A DNA stretch of 64,000 bases, from assembly GCA_026129905.1 (NCBI GenBank), contig JAHCHE010000011.1:1-64000 (forward strand). Reading direction: 5' to 3'. The notes below the pieces were generated by a model. That model had not been told where the DNA came from, did not search any database, and was given only the letters and a program-made list of their open reading frames with translations. The translations under genes and the position numbers were made by a program. Shown here one piece after another: positions 587-15,032 of the stretch (within the stretch, counting starts at the first letter, position 1; each line of letters starts with the position of its first letter). The stretch comes from Bryobacteraceae bacterium (GTDB lineage Bacteria > Acidobacteriota > Terriglobia > Bryobacterales > Bryobacteraceae).

Positions 587-3034
587 ATGCTCTTCACCGT
601 CGTTCGTCTCACCGCGAGCCTGGCCCTCGCCGCTCTGCTCCAGGCCCAGGTCCGCGTCCCTCCGGGCTTCGGACCCCGCCTCGGGGGAAGACAAGGCGAA
701 TCCCAGGCGGAGCGGCAGCGCCGGGCCGAATCTGTGAAACAGCGTTCGGAGCAACAACAGCGTGAAGAGCCGGGGCCTACCCAGCCGCCGCCCGACCCCG
801 CCGCCCAACCAGCGCCGGCGCAACCGGAGGGCGCTCCCGCCGAACCCGCCGAAGGCGAGGCGCCGCAGCGCGGCGGAATCCAGACCACGCCCTCGGGCAT
901 CCTCAGTTTGCAGAACGCTTCGCTCACCGAAGTCATCGACGCCTTGGCGCGCCAGTTGCGCATCAACTACATCCTCGATCCTCGCGTGAAAGGCAGCGTC
1001 ACCCTGAACACCTACGGCGAGGTCAAGGAGATCGATACCCGTTCGCTGCTGGACATGGTGCTGCGCATCAACGGCGCGGCCATGGTGAAAGTGGGCGATA
1101 TCTACCGAATTGTGCCGTTGGCGCAGGCGACGCGGCTGCCGATCTCGCCGCAGGTGAACGCCTCCAAGGAAATCCCTGAGGACGATCAGATTATGCTGAA
1201 CCTGATCTTCCTCAAGTACGCTACCGTCGAGGAACTCTCCAAGCTCCTGGAGCCTTTCATCGGCGAAGGCGCCTTCACCCTCGCCTACCCGCCCGCCAAC
1301 CTCCTGCTCCTGCTCGACAGCCGGCGTAATGTCCGCCGGACCATGGAACTGGTGGCGCTGTTCGACAGCGACGCCCTGGCGAGCCAGCGCGTCCGCCTGT
1401 TCGAGGTCGAGCACGGCCGCCCCTCCGACATCACCAAGGAACTGGAAGCCGTCCTGAAGGCCATCTCGCTTGGCGAAGCGGCCTCCCCGATCAAGTTCCT
1501 CCCAATCGACCGGCTGAACCTGGTGGTCGCCGTCGCGCCGAATCCGGGCGCTTTCGAAACCGTGGAAACGTGGGTCAGGAAGCTCGATCAACCCCTCAAA
1601 GTTACCGCCGGCGCCATCGACAATTACGTCTACCGCGTGAAATACGGCCGGGCCGAAGTGATCGCGGGCGCCATCATGAGCCTTTATCTCGGCATCGGCT
1701 ATGGCGGCTACGGCATGATGGGTGGCTACGGCGGCGGCTTCGGTCTCTTCTCCGGGCCCGCCTCGGGCTTCGGCAACCGCTATCACGGCATGGGTGGTCT
1801 CGGCGGCGGCTACGGCGGCATGGGGATGATGGGCGGTTATGGCGGCATGATGGGCGGCTACGGTGGCATGGGCATGATGGGCGGATATGGCGGCGGCTTC
1901 GGCGGTGGCTACGGCGGAATGATGGGTGGCTACGGCGGCATGGGCATGATGGGCGGTTACGGCGGCGGCTACGCCGGCGCCACCTCCTCCCAGTTCACAC
2001 GGCCCGGCGCCTCTGGAGCCGTCCAGGGAACGGCCGGCGCAACCGGCGGCCTCGCTGGCTCGGACCTCACCGGAAGCTATCTGGGCGGCGGCTACGGGTA
2101 TGGCTACGGCTTCCCCCCTGGCATCCCCAGGGTCGTGCCCAACCCCTTGGACAACACTCTCCTCATCCAGGGCACGCCGCAGGAGTACCAGCAGATCCAA
2201 AAACTCCTTTTGCAGCTCGACGTGCCGCCGCGCCAGGTGCTCGTCGACGCGAAGATCTACGAGGTTAGCCTGACGGGCGCTTTCAGCGCGGGCGTCTCCA
2301 CGTACCTGCAGCGCATCAACGCCGGCCGCGGCCGCGACGGCCTCGGTTCGGTCACTCCGCCGTCGGCCGAGGGACTCTCCGGAGTGAACTTCTCCATCGG
2401 CGCGCTCGTGGACAGCAGCCGCGAGCTTTTCGTCGCTCTCCAGACGCTGGAAACCACGACACAGGCAAAGGTCTTGTCCTCTCCGAGCCTGATCGCCACC
2501 GACAGCATCCCGGCCACGATCACCATCGGTTCGGAAGTGCCCACCCTCACCGCGCAGGCCGTCTCACCGATCCAGGCCGGCGGCAGTTCGCTGTTCACGA
2601 ACTCGATCGCCAACCGGGACGCCGGCATCACTCTGGCCGTACTGGCCCGGGTAAATCCGAGCGGCATCGTCACCCTCGTCATCGATCAGGAGGTCAGCGC
2701 CCCGACCCCCAACACCGCCTCCACCATCCAATCCCCGTCCTTCTCCAAGCGCACTATCCAGACGCAGGTCACCGTCCGCGACGGCGACATGATCGCCATC
2801 GGCGGCATCATCAACGAGACCAGCACCGCCACCAGCGCCGGGTTTCCCGGCCTGCACCGCATCCCAATCCTGGGCGCGCTGTTCGGCGGCAAGTCCTCCG
2901 ACAACGAACGTACCGAGCTGGTGGTGTTCATGACGCCCCGCGTCATCTACGACACCAACCAGATCCTCGATGCCACCGAGGAGATCAAGTCCCGTTTCAA
3001 GAAACTCCGAAAAATGCTGGATCAGGGCGAATAG
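587..3034 (+). CDS. gspD: GspD-like outer-membrane secretin with Gly-rich insertion
   Basis: Outer-membrane secretin of 815 residues, most like GspD of type II secretion. After a signal peptide (about residues 1-21) and a charged Gln/Pro-rich linker comes an N0 domain (about 103-185), with the typical pattern of a variational LTEVIDALARQ helix followed by ILDPRVKG. N1 (about 200-260) and N2 (265-340) domains follow, then an N3 domain (about 345-560), then the C-terminal secretin gate domain with TIGSEVPTLTA and VRDGDMIAIGGII segments and a final VVFMTPRVI strand. No AMIN domain is seen, which argues against PilQ. The N3 domain is split by about 95 residues of Gly/Met/Tyr repeat (residues 369-465). 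GspE/F/G partners are not in the window. It shares an operon with the small exported protein upstream. Confidence 0.85.
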   Translation: MLFTVVRLTASLALAALLQAQVRVPPGFGPRLGGRQGESQAERQRRAESVKQRSEQQQREEPGPTQPPPDPAAQPAPAQPEGAPAEPAEGEAPQRGGIQTTPSGILSLQNASLTEVIDALARQLRINYILDPRVKGSVTLNTYGEVKEIDTRSLLDMVLRINGAAMVKVGDIYRIVPLAQATRLPISPQVNASKEIPEDDQIMLNLIFLKYATVEELSKLLEPFIGEGAFTLAYPPANLLLLLDSRRNVRRTMELVALFDSDALASQRVRLFEVEHGRPSDITKELEAVLKAISLGEAASPIKFLPIDRLNLVVAVAPNPGAFETVETWVRKLDQPLKVTAGAIDNYVYRVKYGRAEVIAGAIMSLYLGIGYGGYGMMGGYGGGFGLFSGPASGFGNRYHGMGGLGGGYGGMGMMGGYGGMMGGYGGMGMMGGYGGGFGGGYGGMMGGYGGMGMMGGYGGGYAGATSSQFTRPGASGAVQGTAGATGGLAGSDLTGSYLGGGYGYGYGFPPGIPRVVPNPLDNTLLIQGTPQEYQQIQKLLLQLDVPPRQVLVDAKIYEVSLTGAFSAGVSTYLQRINAGRGRDGLGSVTPPSAEGLSGVNFSIGALVDSSRELFVALQTLETTTQAKVLSSPSLIATDSIPATITIGSEVPTLTAQAVSPIQAGGSSLFTNSIANRDAGITLAVLARVNPSGIVTLVIDQEVSAPTPNTASTIQSPSFSKRTIQTQVTVRDGDMIAIGGIINETSTATSAGFPGLHRIPILGALFGGKSSDNERTELVVFMTPRVIYDTNQILDATEEIKSRFKKLRKMLDQGE
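1691..1978 (+). repeat. Gly/Met/Tyr-rich repeat region inside the secretin gene
   Basis: In-frame degenerate repeats built from GGYGG, GMMGGYGG and GMGMMGGYGG units, encoding about 95 residues in the N3 domain of the secretin. Codon use varies between units (GGC/GGT/GGA, TAC/TAT), so the repeat is maintained at protein level and is not just recent slippage. Confidence 0.85.
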
Positions 3035-7257: not shown

Positions 7258-7286
7258 GAAAGGGGAGCCTCCGGGCTCCCCTTTTT
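7258..7286 (+). terminator. rho-independent terminator after paralogue 2
   Basis: AGGGGAGCC (7261-7269) pairs with GGCTCCCCT (7274-7282) around a TCCG loop, with flanking A's before and TTTTT after. This is a textbook intrinsic terminator. Confidence 0.9.
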
Positions 7287-7557
7287 GCGTTGGCGGCCTT
7301 GCCACGGCCGTGGCGCGCGCTCTCAGCGCGCCGAGTCCACACTTGTGTGGCCTCTTGCCTCGCCCCATCCCGCCGCATCTTCGTTCCCCGGTCAGGCCTC
7401 TTCCCGTCGCGATTCCTTCTTTTTTTCTGTAATTTGCGCTTCCCTCAAGAACATTTCCGTGCTATTCTGTTTTGGGAGTGTCGGAACCCTGCGGATGATG
7501 CTAGACTGTTTGTTGCACGCCCGCGTCCTGCCTAAGATTTCCCTTTTCGAGGTTGTG
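7287..7557. other. intergenic, no gene seen
   Basis: 271 bases between the terminator and the next start. It includes a T-rich patch (about 7419-7426), but I could not find a well-spaced promoter pair and no coding signal. The following gene can be read open further upstream, but the signal peptide places its start at 7558. Confidence 0.5.
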
Positions 7558-10500
7558 ATGAATCGTTGGATGAAATGGCTCGCGCCTTTGACCTGCCTGT
7601 TCGCCCTTGTCGCCGTCTTGCAGGCAAACGACGTGTTTGTGCTGCCGGACGGCGTCCAAAGTCAGACCGTCAATGTTTACAGCGCTAACCCGCTGGCGGT
7701 GGCGGGCTCCTTCCCCGGACCCCAGGGACGCGCGATCGACACGCTGGCGAGTCCCGACAGCCCCGTCACTTACTGGACCTACGGCGATGCCTCCATCGAC
7801 ACGGTTGTCGGGGTGGACCAGGCGATCTCGCCCGTCTTCCGAAGCGGCGTCGGAAACGCCGCCTCCCGCGCCGCCGTCGTGACGCCGAATGGACGCTATC
7901 TGTTGGTGGCCGCCGGCGCCTTTCGCGTATTCGACACGGCCACCCGCACGGAAGTGAACCTCAACCCGGCGCCGCAAGTGGGGGCGGATCCCGTCGACAT
8001 CGCGGTGAGCGTCGATTCCCGTTACGCCTTTGTTCTCAGCTCGACCTCGCAGCGGCTCACCCGCGTTTCGCTGGAGAACTTCTCCGTCGCGAGCTTCCTC
8101 ACCATCGGAGGCCAGCCCACCGCGGTTGCTGTCGGGCCGGACGGCTACGTCTACCTCAGCACGACCAACGAGATCCTCATCATCGACGGCAACGAGTTGA
8201 ATACCGTCGGCGCCATCAACCTCAACGGCGTGCCCGCCAAGGTCCATTTCACGCCCGACGGGAAAACCGCTCTCGCCATCAACCGGACGCCCGCCACGAA
8301 CGTGACCGTGTGGATCATCGACGTGGCGGCCCGCGCGCTCAAAGGCACGATCCCCAGGCTAGCAGCCGGCGCCCAGACCATCGCCATGGACGATCGCATC
8401 CTCGTGCTGAACAATGAACGGGCTGTGCTTACGTCGCGTCAGACCCAGCTCATGTACCGCCTTACGTTCGCGCCCGCCATCAACATTTTTCTGTACGAGG
8501 TGGGGGGAATCGGCTCGCCCACGGGCGTGTTGGGCGCGACGGTCTCCCATGAGATGCCGCCACGAAATCTGTTCTTCGCCACCGCCAATACGCTCTATCG
8601 CGTCCAGTTATCCAACGATCAGCGCACGGATTCGGTGGCGGTTACCGGCAATGTGCGAGGTCTCGCTTTCGCGCGGCAGCCGTCCAGGGATGTCCCGACA
8701 ACGTTTATTCAGTACAACACCGACCAGACTATCGGCGCGGATGCGGCCTTCAAACCGATCGCCGTCCGGGCGCTCGACGAACTGGGGCGGCCCGTGTTCG
8801 GCGCTCCCGTGGTCTTCTCGACGACGACCGAGGGCGTGACCATCGGGACGCCTTCCACCGAAACGAATCTCGACGGCCTTGCCATGACCACCGTCAATCA
8901 CGGCGAGGTTGGGGGCCGCATCGTCGTCACCGCAACCATTGGAACGAGCCTGACCGCCAACTTTACGCTCATCGTTTCCGGCGGAGGCGGTGGAGGCGGC
9001 GGCGGAGCCGGAGGTATCGCCATCGTCTCCGGGAACGGCCAGCTTCTGCCCACGCAGTTCATCACCGCCGAACCGTTCCGCGTCCGCGTAACCAACGCCG
9101 CCGGAGAACCGGTGGCCGGAGCGGCCGTGGAGTGGCAGGTGGTCGACGGGCAAGGCACTCTCCTTGGCGCCACGCCTGCCACGGACCAGGACGGCTACGC
9201 CATCGCCAACTACGTTTCTCCGCCGACTTCCATCGGCCAGTCTTACCTGCAAACCCGCATACGCGCGACCAGCCAGGAATCCTCGGTCGAATTCTTTGTC
9301 ACCGCCTTTCCGACAGTTGACTTTTCGGGCAGGCAGGTGGCCTCTCCGAACGTCGAACTCATCAAGCCCGCTCTCGACGACCGCGTTGTGACCGGCCGGT
9401 CGGGCGAGACGGTGAGCGACGCGATCCGGCTCAGGATCGTGGCCGCATTCGGCATCAACGCCGGCCAGGGCATTCCCAACGTCAAGATGACGGCCACCAC
9501 CAATCTCCAGCCGAACGTCGGACCCGTGGCTTCCTGCGCCGGAGGCGAGCCTCTGAGCGACGCTCAGGGCTTCGTCAGTTGCAACCTGGTACTATCCGGC
9601 CGTCCCGGCACGTCCCCTCTGTGGGCTACGGGCGGCGCCTTCCGCGAGCACCAGCTCACGCTGGTAATGGCCGAGCCCCTGCCCACTACCATTGAAATCT
9701 CCTCCGGTAACAACCAGTCCGGACTACCCGGCACGGAGCTTCCGCAGCCTCTGGTCGCCCTGGTCAAGAGCACAACCGGCGCCGTAGTCGGCGGCGCCAC
9801 CGTGGTGTGGGAAGTCGTCTCCAACGCCACCCTTCGCAACGTCGTCAGCGTCTCCGACGCGCAGGGCCGCGTCTCGGCTAATGTGACCCTGGGGTCGACG
9901 GTCGGGCCTGCCCAGGTCCGTGTCCGAGCCGGAAACGCTTCGGCGACCTTCAGCCTGACGGTCCGAGCCACGGCCACGAGCCTCGTCGCCATCTCCGGCG
10001 CGGGTCAGACGGCGGTTGTCGGCCAGCAGTTCGCCGCTCCGCTGGTGGTTGAGCTGCGCGATGCCAACAACGCCGGAGTCGCCGGCCAGAATGTGGCGTT
10101 CCAGGTAACGTCCGGCGGCGCCACCTTGTCGTCGCAGAGCGTTCAGACCAACGCGCAGGGCCGCGCCTCGGTTAATGTTACCGCCGGCTCGTCGCCCGGG
10201 AGCATCGTCGTTTCGGCCTCCTACGGCGACTTGCCGGCTGTGACTTTCGCGCTCTCCTCGCGCCTGGCCGGTCCGGCCGTCGGCGTCGCCAGCTTCGTCA
10301 ACGGGGCCAGCGGCGCTCCGGGTCTGGTTCCCGGTTCCATCGCGAGGATCGTCGCTCCGGGACTTGCTCCCAACGTCCAGAATTGCGTCACCCCGGTGTT
10401 CACGTTCGGCGCGCTTCCTCTGGAACTGGCCCAGGTTACCGTCCAGTTCGGCCCTGACGCCGCCGCTTCGTTCGCTCCCATCTATTACGTCTGCAATGTG

Positions 10501-11016
10501 CAGGGCGAGGAATCGGTCGCCATCCAGGTTCCGTTCGAGCTGACGCCTGGGACGACGTCGGCGACCATCCGCGTATCCGGCGGTTCCAGCACGGTTCAGG
10601 ATATTCCCGTGCTCCAGGCGCAGCCCGGCATCTTCGAGGCGGTTGGCCCCAACGGTCTGCGCTACGGCGTCGCCCTCAGGCCCAACGGCTCCTACGTTTC
10701 GCCCCAGAATCCCGCCCGGCGCGGGGAGATCATTGCATTGTTCGCCACCGGCTTGGGCCGCGTCGACCCGGCCGCCGCTACCAACTCCGTCGGCATCCCG
10801 GGCCAGCGCGCGCTCGAACGGATCGTCGTCGGCGTCAACAATCAGGGTGTTCGGGTGTTGCGCGGCGAGTACGCGCCGAACATGATCGGCATCTACATCG
10901 TGTTCTTCGAGATTCCAGCCGATACCGCAACCGGCCTGAACGCTCCGCTGGCGCTCGCGGTTGAGCAGGCCGGCGCGCTGGTGTTCGCCAACGGCTCGAG
11001 CATCGCGATTCAGTAG
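7558..11016 (+). CDS. secreted beta-propeller/Ig-like protein with TIGR03437 C-terminus
   Basis: 1152 residues. The start at 7558 gives a proper signal peptide (MNRWMKWLAPLTCLFALVAV, cleavage near LQAND); the open frame upstream has no such feature. Residues 25-370 show repeated propeller-like motifs (for example TPNGRYLLVAAG, VGPDGYVYLST and FTPDGKTALAI), as in YVTN/lactonase-type propellers. Several bacterial Ig-like (Big_1-type) domains follow from about residue 385 to 910, with the recurring AxVxWxV and DxxGxAxxxV patterns, broken by a poly-Gly linker near 480. The last 230 residues match the TIGR03437 domain (NGASGAPGLVPGSIARIVAP, then IALFATGLGRVDP). An adhesive or surface role is inference. 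Confidence 0.85.
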   Translation: MNRWMKWLAPLTCLFALVAVLQANDVFVLPDGVQSQTVNVYSANPLAVAGSFPGPQGRAIDTLASPDSPVTYWTYGDASIDTVVGVDQAISPVFRSGVGNAASRAAVVTPNGRYLLVAAGAFRVFDTATRTEVNLNPAPQVGADPVDIAVSVDSRYAFVLSSTSQRLTRVSLENFSVASFLTIGGQPTAVAVGPDGYVYLSTTNEILIIDGNELNTVGAINLNGVPAKVHFTPDGKTALAINRTPATNVTVWIIDVAARALKGTIPRLAAGAQTIAMDDRILVLNNERAVLTSRQTQLMYRLTFAPAINIFLYEVGGIGSPTGVLGATVSHEMPPRNLFFATANTLYRVQLSNDQRTDSVAVTGNVRGLAFARQPSRDVPTTFIQYNTDQTIGADAAFKPIAVRALDELGRPVFGAPVVFSTTTEGVTIGTPSTETNLDGLAMTTVNHGEVGGRIVVTATIGTSLTANFTLIVSGGGGGGGGGAGGIAIVSGNGQLLPTQFITAEPFRVRVTNAAGEPVAGAAVEWQVVDGQGTLLGATPATDQDGYAIANYVSPPTSIGQSYLQTRIRATSQESSVEFFVTAFPTVDFSGRQVASPNVELIKPALDDRVVTGRSGETVSDAIRLRIVAAFGINAGQGIPNVKMTATTNLQPNVGPVASCAGGEPLSDAQGFVSCNLVLSGRPGTSPLWATGGAFREHQLTLVMAEPLPTTIEISSGNNQSGLPGTELPQPLVALVKSTTGAVVGGATVVWEVVSNATLRNVVSVSDAQGRVSANVTLGSTVGPAQVRVRAGNASATFSLTVRATATSLVAISGAGQTAVVGQQFAAPLVVELRDANNAGVAGQNVAFQVTSGGATLSSQSVQTNAQGRASVNVTAGSSPGSIVVSASYGDLPAVTFALSSRLAGPAVGVASFVNGASGAPGLVPGSIARIVAPGLAPNVQNCVTPVFTFGALPLELAQVTVQFGPDAAASFAPIYYVCNVQGEESVAIQVPFELTPGTTSATIRVSGGSSTVQDIPVLQAQPGIFEAVGPNGLRYGVALRPNGSYVSPQNPARRGEIIALFATGLGRVDPAAATNSVGIPGQRALERIVVGVNNQGVRVLRGEYAPNMIGIYIVFFEIPADTATGLNAPLALAVEQAGALVFANGSSIAIQ

Positions 11017-12870: not shown

Positions 12871-12994
12871 CACATCTATTGTAGACGTGAACCGCGGCCT
12901 CTCCGTGTACTCGGCGATCCCCGCACACCCGCCGGCGGGCTCCTGAAACAGGGGCGCGCCCTGGACTGTCTCCTTGTCGGAGGGGCCAAGAAAT

Positions 12995-13564
12995 ATGATA
13001 AGAACTCTGAAACAATACGCCATCTGCGGGACGATCCTGGCGGCTTTTGCCGTCTCCTCGGCCACGGCCGACGACGAGAAAAAGAAGGACCGCTACGACC
13101 GCGCAGGCGAGAAGACCGAAGACACGGTCAAGAAAGGCGGCGAGGCAACCGATCGCGGCGTCACCAAGGCGGGCAAAGCAACCGAGAAAGCCGCCGATAA
13201 GACCGGCGATGCCGTCGAGAAGGGCATGGAAGGCGCCGGCAAGGGCGTCGGAGCCGCCGTCGAGCATACCGGCAGGGGCGTGGCCAAAGGCGCGAAGGCT
13301 ACTGGAGGCGCGCTAGAAACCGCCGGTGGAGCGATCAAGGGTCTGTTTACCGATGACGACGACGATCGCGACAGCGACCGCTATCACGACCGGGTGAAGG
13401 CAGCCCAGCGGGCGCTCCAGGCGAAAGGCTACTATGGCGGGCCGATCGACGGCGTCGCCGGCGACGATACCCGCTCCGGTGTCCGCGAGTTTCAGCGCGA
13501 CAACAATCTCGCGGTAACCGGCAGGATCGACCGGGCGACTGCGGAGAAGCTCGGAATCGACTGA
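12995..13564 (+). CDS. exported protein with peptidoglycan-binding domain
   Basis: 189 residues starting at ATG 12995, with GGAGGGG upstream. A signal peptide (about 1-25) is followed by a long Ala/Gly/Lys/Thr-rich region (30-110) with an irregular 7-11-residue repeat (KGGEATDRGVTKAGKATEK), reminiscent of LEA-like or apolipoprotein-like amphipathic helices. Then comes an acidic DDDDD stretch. A C-terminal PG_binding_1 domain (about 130-189) carries AAQRALQAKGYYGGPIDGVAG and FQRDNNLAVTGRID. It likely sits in the periplasm and attaches to the cell wall. The role of the repeat part is unknown. Confidence 0.85.
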   Translation: MIRTLKQYAICGTILAAFAVSSATADDEKKKDRYDRAGEKTEDTVKKGGEATDRGVTKAGKATEKAADKTGDAVEKGMEGAGKGVGAAVEHTGRGVAKGAKATGGALETAGGAIKGLFTDDDDDRDSDRYHDRVKAAQRALQAKGYYGGPIDGVAGDDTRSGVREFQRDNNLAVTGRIDRATAEKLGID

Positions 13565-13590: not shown

Positions 13591-13624
13591 CGGGAGCCGG
13601 CTGCCGCAGTCAGCCCGGCTCCCG
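13591..13624. terminator. hairpin between convergent genes
   Basis: Perfect 10-bp arms (CGGGAGCCGG at 13591-13600 and CCGGCTCCCG at 13615-13624) with a 14-base loop. It lies between the + gene ending at 13564 and the - gene ending at 13610, and overlaps the last codons of the latter. It probably serves both directions. Confidence 0.65.
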
Positions 13625-14296
13625 CGCACTTCTCGCCGCCGCCTGTCCCGCCGGCTGCCGGAAAGCTTTCCACCAAACCAGCAGGCAAGCCAGGTGCGAC
13701 AGCACCGCAATGAGGTTGCCGAGCAATACGAGCGAAGGCGCGGAGCGCGAAACGCGCAGCAGCGATTCGCCGATCGCGTTACCCGCCATGTTGAGCCCCA
13801 TCCCGCCGCTCACCATCAGCAGCCGGTTGTCGCCGAGTCCTGCGCGAACGAGTGAAAACCAGAGGATCGCCGTCAAGACCGTCGCGGCGAAGCTCAAGTT
13901 GCGCCCCACCTCGTTCATGTAAAGCGCGGCAGTCTCTCCCCGGGTAAATACAAATACCCCGGCGATGCCAGAGAACGTCGCCGCGAACGTCTTGATGCGG
14001 AACGCCGGACCGCCGTGATGCTCTTTCGTCGCGATGTAGATCAACGACAGCACGGCTGCCATTCCCGCAAAATGCCGAAGCGTGTCATTGATGAAAAAGT
14101 ACTTCCGGTACCAAACCGGCCAGTTGCCGAGTTCGAGGAACATGGACATGTCCGCTACCCCGGTCAAGAACAAGACCAGCAGATAGAAGAAGACCCCGGC
14201 GAATTTGCCGGGCTCGGCCCTGGTCATGGCATAGATCACCATGACCTGGAGGACCATTCCGCAAATTCCCAGGGCCGTGAACAGGTATAGCTGCAT
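13610..14296 (-). CDS. polytopic membrane protein
   Basis: 228 residues with about six or seven hydrophobic segments: residues 3-25, 34-54, 76-90, 101-118, 131-151, 159-175 and 185-208. It is therefore an inner-membrane protein. I do not recognise the family. Conserved-looking polar loops include the RKYFFINDTLRHF stretch (about residues 64-76). It lies 53 bases downstream of the repeat-protein gene on the same strand and may be co-transcribed with it. Confidence 0.7.
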   Translation of the reverse strand: MQLYLFTALGICGMVLQVMVIYAMTRAEPGKFAGVFFYLLVLFLTGVADMSMFLELGNWPVWYRKYFFINDTLRHFAGMAAVLSLIYIATKEHHGGPAFRIKTFAATFSGIAGVFVFTRGETAALYMNEVGRNLSFAATVLTAILWFSLVRAGLGDNRLLMVSGGMGLNMAGNAIGESLLRVSRSAPSLVLLGNLIAVLSHLACLLVWWKAFRQPAGQAAARSAREPG

Positions 14297-14349: not shown

Positions 14350-14856
14350 CTACGGCCTCTCGAACGGATCGGGACTGGGCCAGGGGCCGAGGGCCACCGG
14401 CCTCTCGAACGGATCGGGACTGGGCCAGGGGCCGAGGGCCACCGGCCTCTCATACGGATCGGGGCTGGGCCAGGGACCGAGGGCCACCGGCCTCTCATAC
14501 GGATCGGGGCTAGGCCAGGGACCGAGGGCCACCGGCCTCTCAAACGGATCGGGGCTGGGCCAGGGACCGAGAGCCACAGGCCTCTCGAACGGATCGGGGC
14601 TAGGCCAGGGACCGAGAGCCACCGGCCTCTCGAACGGATCAGGACTGGGCCAGGGACCGAGAGCCACCGGCCTCTCGAACGGATCGGGACTGGGCCAGGG
14701 GCCGAGGGCCACGGGCCTCTCATACGGATCGGGACTGGGCCAGGGACCAAGTTGCGAATCTCCGCTGCTTCCAGTCAACAGTGTCGCATCTGCCGGAACT
14801 GCAAACAACACGAGCACCGCAGCAACGATGGCAACGACAGCAGGTGTTTTGTTCAT
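14350..14856 (-). CDS. exported protein of nine 15-residue Pro-rich repeats
   Basis: 168 residues. A signal peptide (MNKTPAVVAIVAAVLVLFAV, cleavage near ADA at 24) and an 11-residue spacer lead into nine copies of GPWPSPDPFERPVAL, with the ninth truncated after RP by the stop codon. Copies 1, 6 and 7 have Tyr in place of Phe; all others are the same at protein level. Spaced Pro residues suggest an extended, perhaps polyproline-II-like rod with a Trp and an aromatic residue per unit. A ribosome-binding site (AGGAG) lies about 14 bases before ATG, a little far. I know of no named family. A surface or wall-spanning role is inference. Confidence 0.8.
   Translation of the reverse strand: MNKTPAVVAIVAAVLVLFAVPADATLLTGSSGDSQLGPWPSPDPYERPVALGPWPSPDPFERPVALGPWPSPDPFERPVALGPWPSPDPFERPVALGPWPSPDPFERPVALGPWPSPDPYERPVALGPWPSPDPYERPVALGPWPSPDPFERPVALGPWPSPDPFERP
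14353..14748 (-). repeat. 45-bp tandem repeat, about 8.8 copies, coding
   Basis: Near-identical 45-bp units in phase with the protein repeat. Most differences between units are synonymous or Tyr/Phe changes (TTC/TAT). Because 45 is divisible by three, several frames on both strands stay open, which creates false open frames here. Confidence 0.95.
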
Positions 14857-14873
14857 GAGAGTGTCGGTTCCTC

Positions 14874-14946
14874 CTAAGGTGTTTGACTCACGCCACGCAT
14901 CGAAAAAGCTTGATAAGTGGCCTACGATAGCAAGCGAACACCTTAG
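14874..14946. promoter_or_regulatory. 10-bp inverted repeat upstream of the repeat-protein gene
   Basis: CTAAGGTGTT (14874-14883) and AACACCTTAG (14937-14946) are perfect inverted arms 53 bases apart. The first arm overlaps the ribosome-binding region of the gene starting at 14856. It could be a two-site operator or a long stem that hides the ribosome-binding site. Confidence 0.35.
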
Positions 14947-15032
14947 AGTGTACCCGAGGTAAACGTAAGAATTATCTAAGAAAATTCCTTACTTGTCGTT
15001 GGGTGTAAGACGCTAGGACGCGCCCGGTCGTC

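Follow-up and report, generated by a model that had tools for sequence, protein, structure and literature searches.

The quorum-sensing propeptides of the RRNPPA systems of Firmicutes are short and exported, their genes adjoin that of the receptor, and the receptors are cytoplasmic TPR proteins (PMC9765709). In fission yeast the P-factor precursor encoded by map2 follows standard secretion and contains from four to eight tandem copies of the pheromone, the receptor is the seven-transmembrane (7TM) protein Mam2, and a dose effect of the copy number is reported (PMC6342294). BtsS is a histidine kinase with seven helices and a periplasmic N-terminus that binds its ligand within the helices (PMC10653868).

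The locus described here lies in a window of 64,000 nt from a Bryobacteraceae bacterium (the whole stretch of DNA analysed, from contig JAHCHE010000011.1), and comprises a precursor gene followed by the gene of a polytopic membrane protein (Table 1). We tentatively read it as a multi-copy secreted peptide with a 7TM partner that would probably be its sensor. The system works most like the multi-copy pheromone precursors, but its partner sets it apart from the RRNPPA systems, and membership of the P-factor kind is at most putative. In common with the former it has a short propeptide with a hydrophobic N-terminus (and thus presumed to be exported) beside a partner gene, an arrangement found at 73 of 94 places with classes assigned by eye. 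However, the partner is modelled as seven TM helices in place of a cytoplasmic TPR receptor, the precursors as a rule carry arrays and the hosts belong to the acidobacteria. The resemblance to the P-factor precursor lies in the tandem copies behind a signal-like N-terminus in the window gene, for which a pheromone role is putative. Unlike P-factor, the window copies are identical except for Tyr/Phe and no dibasic site is seen; moreover P-factor and Mam2 are eukaryotic, whereas the 7TM protein is GPCR-like in shape alone, with no sequence relation found. A literature search by titles and abstracts gave nothing on the precursor–7TM family, and a narrow search on acidobacteria found no description of peptide signalling of this kind.

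Table 1. Positions of the features of the precursor–7TM locus within the window.
Feature	Position	Strand	Description
Precursor gene	14350..14856	-	168 aa; nine peptide units in tandem behind a signal-like N-terminus
Signal-peptide-like N-terminus, residues 1-24 (MNKTPAVV...PADA)	14785..14856	-	Cleavage site read by eye from the sequence
Unit array, nine GPWPSPDP[YF]ERPVAL, the last of 12 residues	14353..14748	-	Translation and Tandem Repeats Finder
Sigma-70-like promoter match, weak	14971..14999	-	9/12, upstream of the precursor–7TM pair
Partner, 228-aa polytopic membrane protein	13610..14296	-	Predicted to have seven TM helices; begins 53 nt past the precursor stop codon

The original prediction placed an exported-looking protein of nine proline-rich repeats at this position, with Tyr/Phe as the sole variation between units, and the translation of the minus-strand reading frame agrees on both points; the strand itself had been left unspecified. 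The protein begins MNKTPAVVAIVAAVLVLFAVPADA-TLLTGSSGDSQL and continues as nine units of GPWPSPDPFERPVAL, of which eight have 15 residues and the ninth stops after ERP at the stop codon; nine is the copy number as assembled. Tandem Repeats Finder gives a period of 45 with 8.8 copies, 93% matches and a score of 638. An AGGAGG sequence at 14870–14875 lies 13 nt ahead of the ATG. The promoter-like match is the one found where 0.3 would be expected in the region by shuffling, and is no evidence of function. The stretch separating the two window genes has no reported terminator-like site. The unit contains no obvious dibasic or other common cleavage site. The repeat had also been thought to belong to no known family, and the precursor indeed went unmatched in searches of Pfam (E up to 1), NCBIfam (0.1) and PADLOC (0.01). 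It is the sole clear match in its own assembly (8.57 Mb, 71 contigs), the other match having E = 0.47. A single-sequence model, of low confidence (pLDDT 59), has an N-terminal helix at residues 4–18 and an array without a confident fold.

At the level of DNA the eight full units vary in 8 of 45 columns, seven of these at codon position 3. Comparison of unit pairs gives 79 synonymous against 15 nonsynonymous codon differences, and all 15 are Tyr/Phe. One antisense frame of the array has a similar ratio (91 against 15); the sense frame is preferred because of its start, its ribosome site and its family. In twelve further arrays, picked by us from family members in other genomes, the variable columns at codon positions 1, 2 and 3 number 8, 0 and 88. 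Since copies within a gene differ almost only synonymously and the units vary widely between species, it is the peptide itself that is selected; the computation shows that silent sites have drifted between copies with the peptide kept, i.e. selection at the level of the peptide.

When the window protein was searched against 61 genomes (that of the window and 60 relatives), two clear relatives emerged at E of about 1e-7, one with seven units of GPVPPPNPWDDINGI and the other with three of GPWPFPDDSAGGNIAA; the weaker matches were without such an array. With the first of these as query, 35 of the 257 genomes of the order were matched at E = 0.01, some weakly. A DNA pattern for GPxxPP[DN]PW[DE], which does not match the unit of the window itself, was found in 24 of the 257 order genomes and, once each, in 2 of 396 genomes of a phylum sample that is a draw and not the whole group. 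The control pattern, read backwards, was found in none of the 257 or the 396. In a collection of 84,980 species the pattern matched 82 stretches, 80 with titles; in 20 of the 82 a single short frame holds at least two motifs, and every one of the 19 titled stretches among these 20 is acidobacterial. Spread of the motif through bacteria at large is therefore ruled out, and where other phyla have a single match, the frame appears by eye to be a chance one. At L108, L118 and L157 a GPxxPPNPW[DE] motif occurs, apparently by chance, inside long membrane-protein reading frames that resemble cytochrome oxidase subunit I.

Across the family the array units have 10–26 residues in 2 to 11 copies, with a mean proline share of 0.27, and are highly diverse in sequence (for example HGPVRPPGGGTNIVA, AHIAPPPDIWEL, LPTPPPSPYGPSL, SGPGPAADGF and LAGNPPPPDDEEDGTNIR). 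The net charge is negative for 78 of 87 computed units, zero for seven and positive for two, a tally in which L210 is in the wrong frame and L194, L207 and L217 are taken as double units. With the window unit at −1, this is unlike the positive charge of the cationic proline-rich antimicrobial peptides. Within genera the copy number is 8, 9 and 9 (g84) or ranges from 1 to 7 (g25). One-unit precursors are found at L222, L241, L258 and L266, and the single unit of L241, GPWPSPNPWDRPV, is by eye the most like that of the window. Genus g53 (L296, L298, L299 and L324) has two-unit minigenes of about 22–28 residues with no clear signal peptide.

The original prediction holds in part, and is changed in that the precursor belongs to a family of its order with a recurrent 7TM partner. 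Copy number does change among relatives (from 1 to 11 units, at one genome per species), as had been proposed, but the sameness of the copies is not just recent slippage, as the silent sites have diverged. The suggested antigenic or mechanical tuning gained no support. Orthologues with a single unit, or a known domain, had been named as grounds for rejecting the prediction; the former exist, and no known domain was matched. An orphan slippage repeat is ruled out by the family membership and the synonymous divergence of the copies.

The array might alternatively be a structural or adhesive protein, remaining intact in the envelope with the 7TM protein anchoring, assembling or monitoring it. Proline-rich repeats lacking a confident fold are in keeping with this, as weak evidence from the single-sequence model, and selection at the level of the peptide is compatible too. 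We nevertheless consider it unlikely, because some of the one- and two-unit precursors are just 22–50 residues long, short for a scaffold, and the unit varies widely by species in length and sequence while the 7TM protein stays recognisable.

The neighbours of 43 repeat loci were clustered, taking up to about 9 kb per side, and for many loci less. Most recurrent are an ATPase, in 15 genera, and a membrane protein, in 14. The latter is mostly of 220–255 aa, and includes the partner in the window. Unlike the case of multi-core RiPP precursors, no conserved modifying enzyme of RiPP type was recognised by eye among the neighbour clusters present in three or more genera. A profile was built from 16 members of the 7TM family standing beside repeat genes, and at a detection threshold of E = 1e-8, with 11 first-look candidates scored per genome, it located 125 places in 117 of the 257 genomes and 41 of the 84 genera of the order. 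The 7TM genes were thus sought by their own sequence and the repeats not presupposed, yet the profile itself derives from repeat-adjacent genes. Four of the 396 phylum-sample genomes were matched, three from the family of the window and one weakly.

Upstream of the 125 7TM genes there are 87 tandem precursors, four one-unit precursors and ten PAS/receiver reading frames (g55), as classified by eye by a reader to whom the hypothesis was known. Ten have neither (L245, L246, L248, L264, L275, L279, L284, L307, L312 and L323), one is uncertain (L297) and 13 are too close to a contig edge; the last were set aside, with a unit or unit tail visible in nine of them. If only the 94 places with at least 600 nt upstream are taken, the 73 precursors comprise 71 tandem and two one-unit forms, and the remainder are ten PAS/receiver frames (all in genus g55), ten with neither and one uncertain. 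Tandem loci at contig edges are within the 87 and mostly outside the 94.

The first 102 places were also put through an automatic control, with a threshold of 85% for DNA repeats in the 600 nt ahead of a gene. Outside g55, 45 of 70 7TM genes had such a repeat, compared with 2 of 283 other reading frames of at least 200 aa in the 43 loci, and both exceptions (in G181 and G182) stand behind the family's own arrays. This cut-off misses many two-unit arrays, for which reason the census was read by eye. The median gap between precursor and 7TM gene is about 66 nt in the first set, using 7TM starts estimated from the profile. An exception is L247, where about 610 nt and a second small reading frame separate the two. 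This second frame (in G021) has a signal-like start (MAKYLTNPKLF...) and is located about 450–600 nt ahead of the 7TM gene.

Taken together, the precursor and 7TM genes almost certainly form a recurrent pair. A repeat gene away from contig ends with no 7TM gene detected at E = 1e-8 was found in at least five genomes (G003, G011, G181, G182 and G198), one of which (G182) is a single contig. These genomes count against a receptor, and would suit both an envelope protein and two genes that work separately. The two genes are on different contigs in G102, G112 and G114.

Shared ancestry alone could also place the genes together, i.e. vertical synteny with precursor and 7TM protein working separately. 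A TIGR03015-like ATPase (293 bits against a cut-off of 324.5), infC-like genes and type III CRISPR genes are further recurrent neighbours of the repeat loci, as this would lead one to expect. Yet in the genome of the window the precursor and 7TM genes are together and the ATPase stands apart on a different contig (G000:C16), where no repeat gene was seen next to it, and at four g25 loci the pair is kept with the ATPase not adjacent within the stretch examined. A further family of the order (G039, L276) also keeps the pair, and in a different family of the class (G516, L302) a weak relative of the 7TM protein (E = 6e-7) stands behind a short exported-looking proline-rich reading frame. Synteny alone is improbable, and separation of the pair from the ATPase and other neighbours was counted in favour of ligand and receptor. 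The short reading frame at L302 ends GGPVPVPIPPASSSK, and is perhaps a one-unit form.

At L178:10541-15856 (G002) and L209:7214-10409 (G000:C16) the TIGR03015-like ATPase is preceded by type III-A CRISPR effector genes, a position read by eye in the window's genome. The ATPase itself, a neighbour in 15 genera though located elsewhere in the genome of the window, is a candidate third member of the system. The best PADLOC E values at L178 are 3e-20 (Csm5), 4e-19 (Csm4), 2e-62 (Csm3) and 4e-26 (Cas10), and type III-A-related genes cluster near repeat loci in up to seven genera.

Reading frames named by eye as Ser/Thr-kinase-like occur within 9 kb of repeat loci in five genera, and are on the opposite strand to the 7TM gene at L189, L198, L202 and L205, four loci where the latter is placed. 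No signalling gene recurs behind the 7TM gene on the same strand outside g55. In genus g55 a 7TM paralogue stands behind a long PAS/receiver reading frame. The ten such frames are alike by eye, and of four that were scanned all have Response_reg and PAS models above cut-off and two have HisKA.

The AlphaFold2 model of the 7TM partner (pLDDT 86, pTM 0.82) has seven long helices (residues 2–27, 33–55, 61–93, 97–117, 123–151, 157–182 and 188–213) and a short C-terminal helix. Lysine and arginine average 2.5, 2.2, 3.2 and 2.8 around loops 1, 3 and 5 and the C-terminus, against 1.1, 1.4 and 1.8 around loops 2, 4 and 6; by the positive-inside distribution the N-terminus is therefore placed outside and the C-terminus inside. 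Conservation is lower in the outer than in the inner helix halves (1.45 against 1.72, p = 0.004, for residues and sequences that are not independent), with helices 4 and 6 showing the opposite. W146 is invariant in all 103 rows of the alignment, in which the window protein is present twice. Conservation is also high at D156, at G167 and at positions 67, 68 and 71, which hold aromatic or acidic residues.

Foldseek with the model listed GPCRs first (best E 0.035, none at E = 1e-3), with rhodopsins among the matches. Structural comparison with LYCHOS (GPR155) gave Z = 14.6 (rmsd 4.4, 209 of 228 residues), and many other GPCRs and a designed GPCR-like fold gave Z = 12–14, values to be read against the roughly 13 that helical bundles reach by arrangement alone. 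The modelled partner is GPCR-like in shape, a shared arrangement that shows neither kinship nor function. Sequence profiles found no relative among solved structures. No column from 188 to 207 has lysine in more than 5 of 103 rows, so that the retinal-binding lysine of microbial rhodopsins is not seen in helix 7. The window protein matched no Pfam family at E = 1. None of the 16 members gave a confident match to the known bacterial 7TM sensor families of Pfam, nor was an NCBIfam family matched with confidence; MASE3 was matched by two of them (best E 0.0016), and TPR is absent from the 21 Pfam families matched by any of them at E = 1. Seven helices are shared with BtsS, as is the N-out placement, by charge here, and seven helices are also shared with the 7TMR-DISM proteins. 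BtsS, however, is a histidine kinase (PMC10653868); the partner described here consists of a 7TM domain alone, about 228 aa in length, and has no fused output domain.

Could the 7TM protein instead process, export or protect against the peptide, as a maturation partner or a bacteriocin-like immunity protein? Bacteriocin/immunity pairs are commonly laid out with a membrane-protein gene immediately after a variable peptide gene, and polar residues are conserved within the helices (N/D142, D156, E/D71 and R180). On the other hand the units are acidic or neutral, with a positive net charge in just 2 of 87, and the 125 places are spread over 117 genomes, mostly at one copy per genome and often beside the same ATPase (15 genera). 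Histidine does not rank first in any of the 30 best-conserved columns, and inspection by eye showed no intramembrane protease motif of a known type. Such a role is improbable.

Returning to the sensor, we infer export, cleavage into units, binding by the 7TM protein and signalling. The window gene would encode a Sec-exported propeptide in which one short peptide, acidic and rich in proline, is present in nine copies, forming a two-gene unit with the downstream 7TM gene. Outside the cytoplasm the propeptide would be cleaved into single units, and the 7TM protein, its N-terminus facing outward, would sense the peptide. The array may raise the ligand dose per transcript, as in multi-copy pheromone precursors. 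Computed support comes from the array, the peptide-level selection, the recurrent pairing across the order, the confident seven-helix model and the positive-inside charge. Counted in favour as well are the lower conservation of the outer helix halves, the g55 paralogue behind a PAS/receiver frame and the RRNPPA and P-factor precedents. Against a receptor we count the 10 of 94 7TM genes lacking a precursor, the absence of a fused output domain and of a same-strand signalling gene outside g55, the absence of an obvious cleavage site in the window unit and of a fold match at E = 1e-3, and the g53 precursors that seemingly have no signal peptide. The hosts should also have an outer membrane, which Sec export alone does not cross, and this counts against a secreted signal. 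The wider proposal is possible but rather doubtful: a peptide-signalling family of the Bryobacterales with a species-diversified multi-copy peptide and a stand-alone GPCR-shaped 7TM receptor, a bacterial counterpart of the fungal pheromone and receptor, with the g55 paralogue beside a PAS/receiver hybrid kinase. If the protein is a receptor, stand-alone 7TM proteins join the ways in which bacteria may read peptides. Acidobacteria are common in soil. About ninety peptide–7TM pairs, with changing peptides and a recognisable partner, provide a ready set for tests of peptide specificity.

Elsewhere in the window, the plus strand encodes at 587–3034 an 815-aa protein, which we take to resemble a secretin, with an inserted Gly/Tyr/Met-rich repeat tract (GGYGGMGMMGG; repeats at 1804–1977). 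At 12974–13564 (plus strand) lies the gene of a protein with a peptidoglycan-binding domain, which matches HxsA partially and below the cut-off. The gene at 7285–11016 (plus strand) encodes a large protein that combines Big_1 domains with TIGR03437, the Solibacter C-terminal domain.
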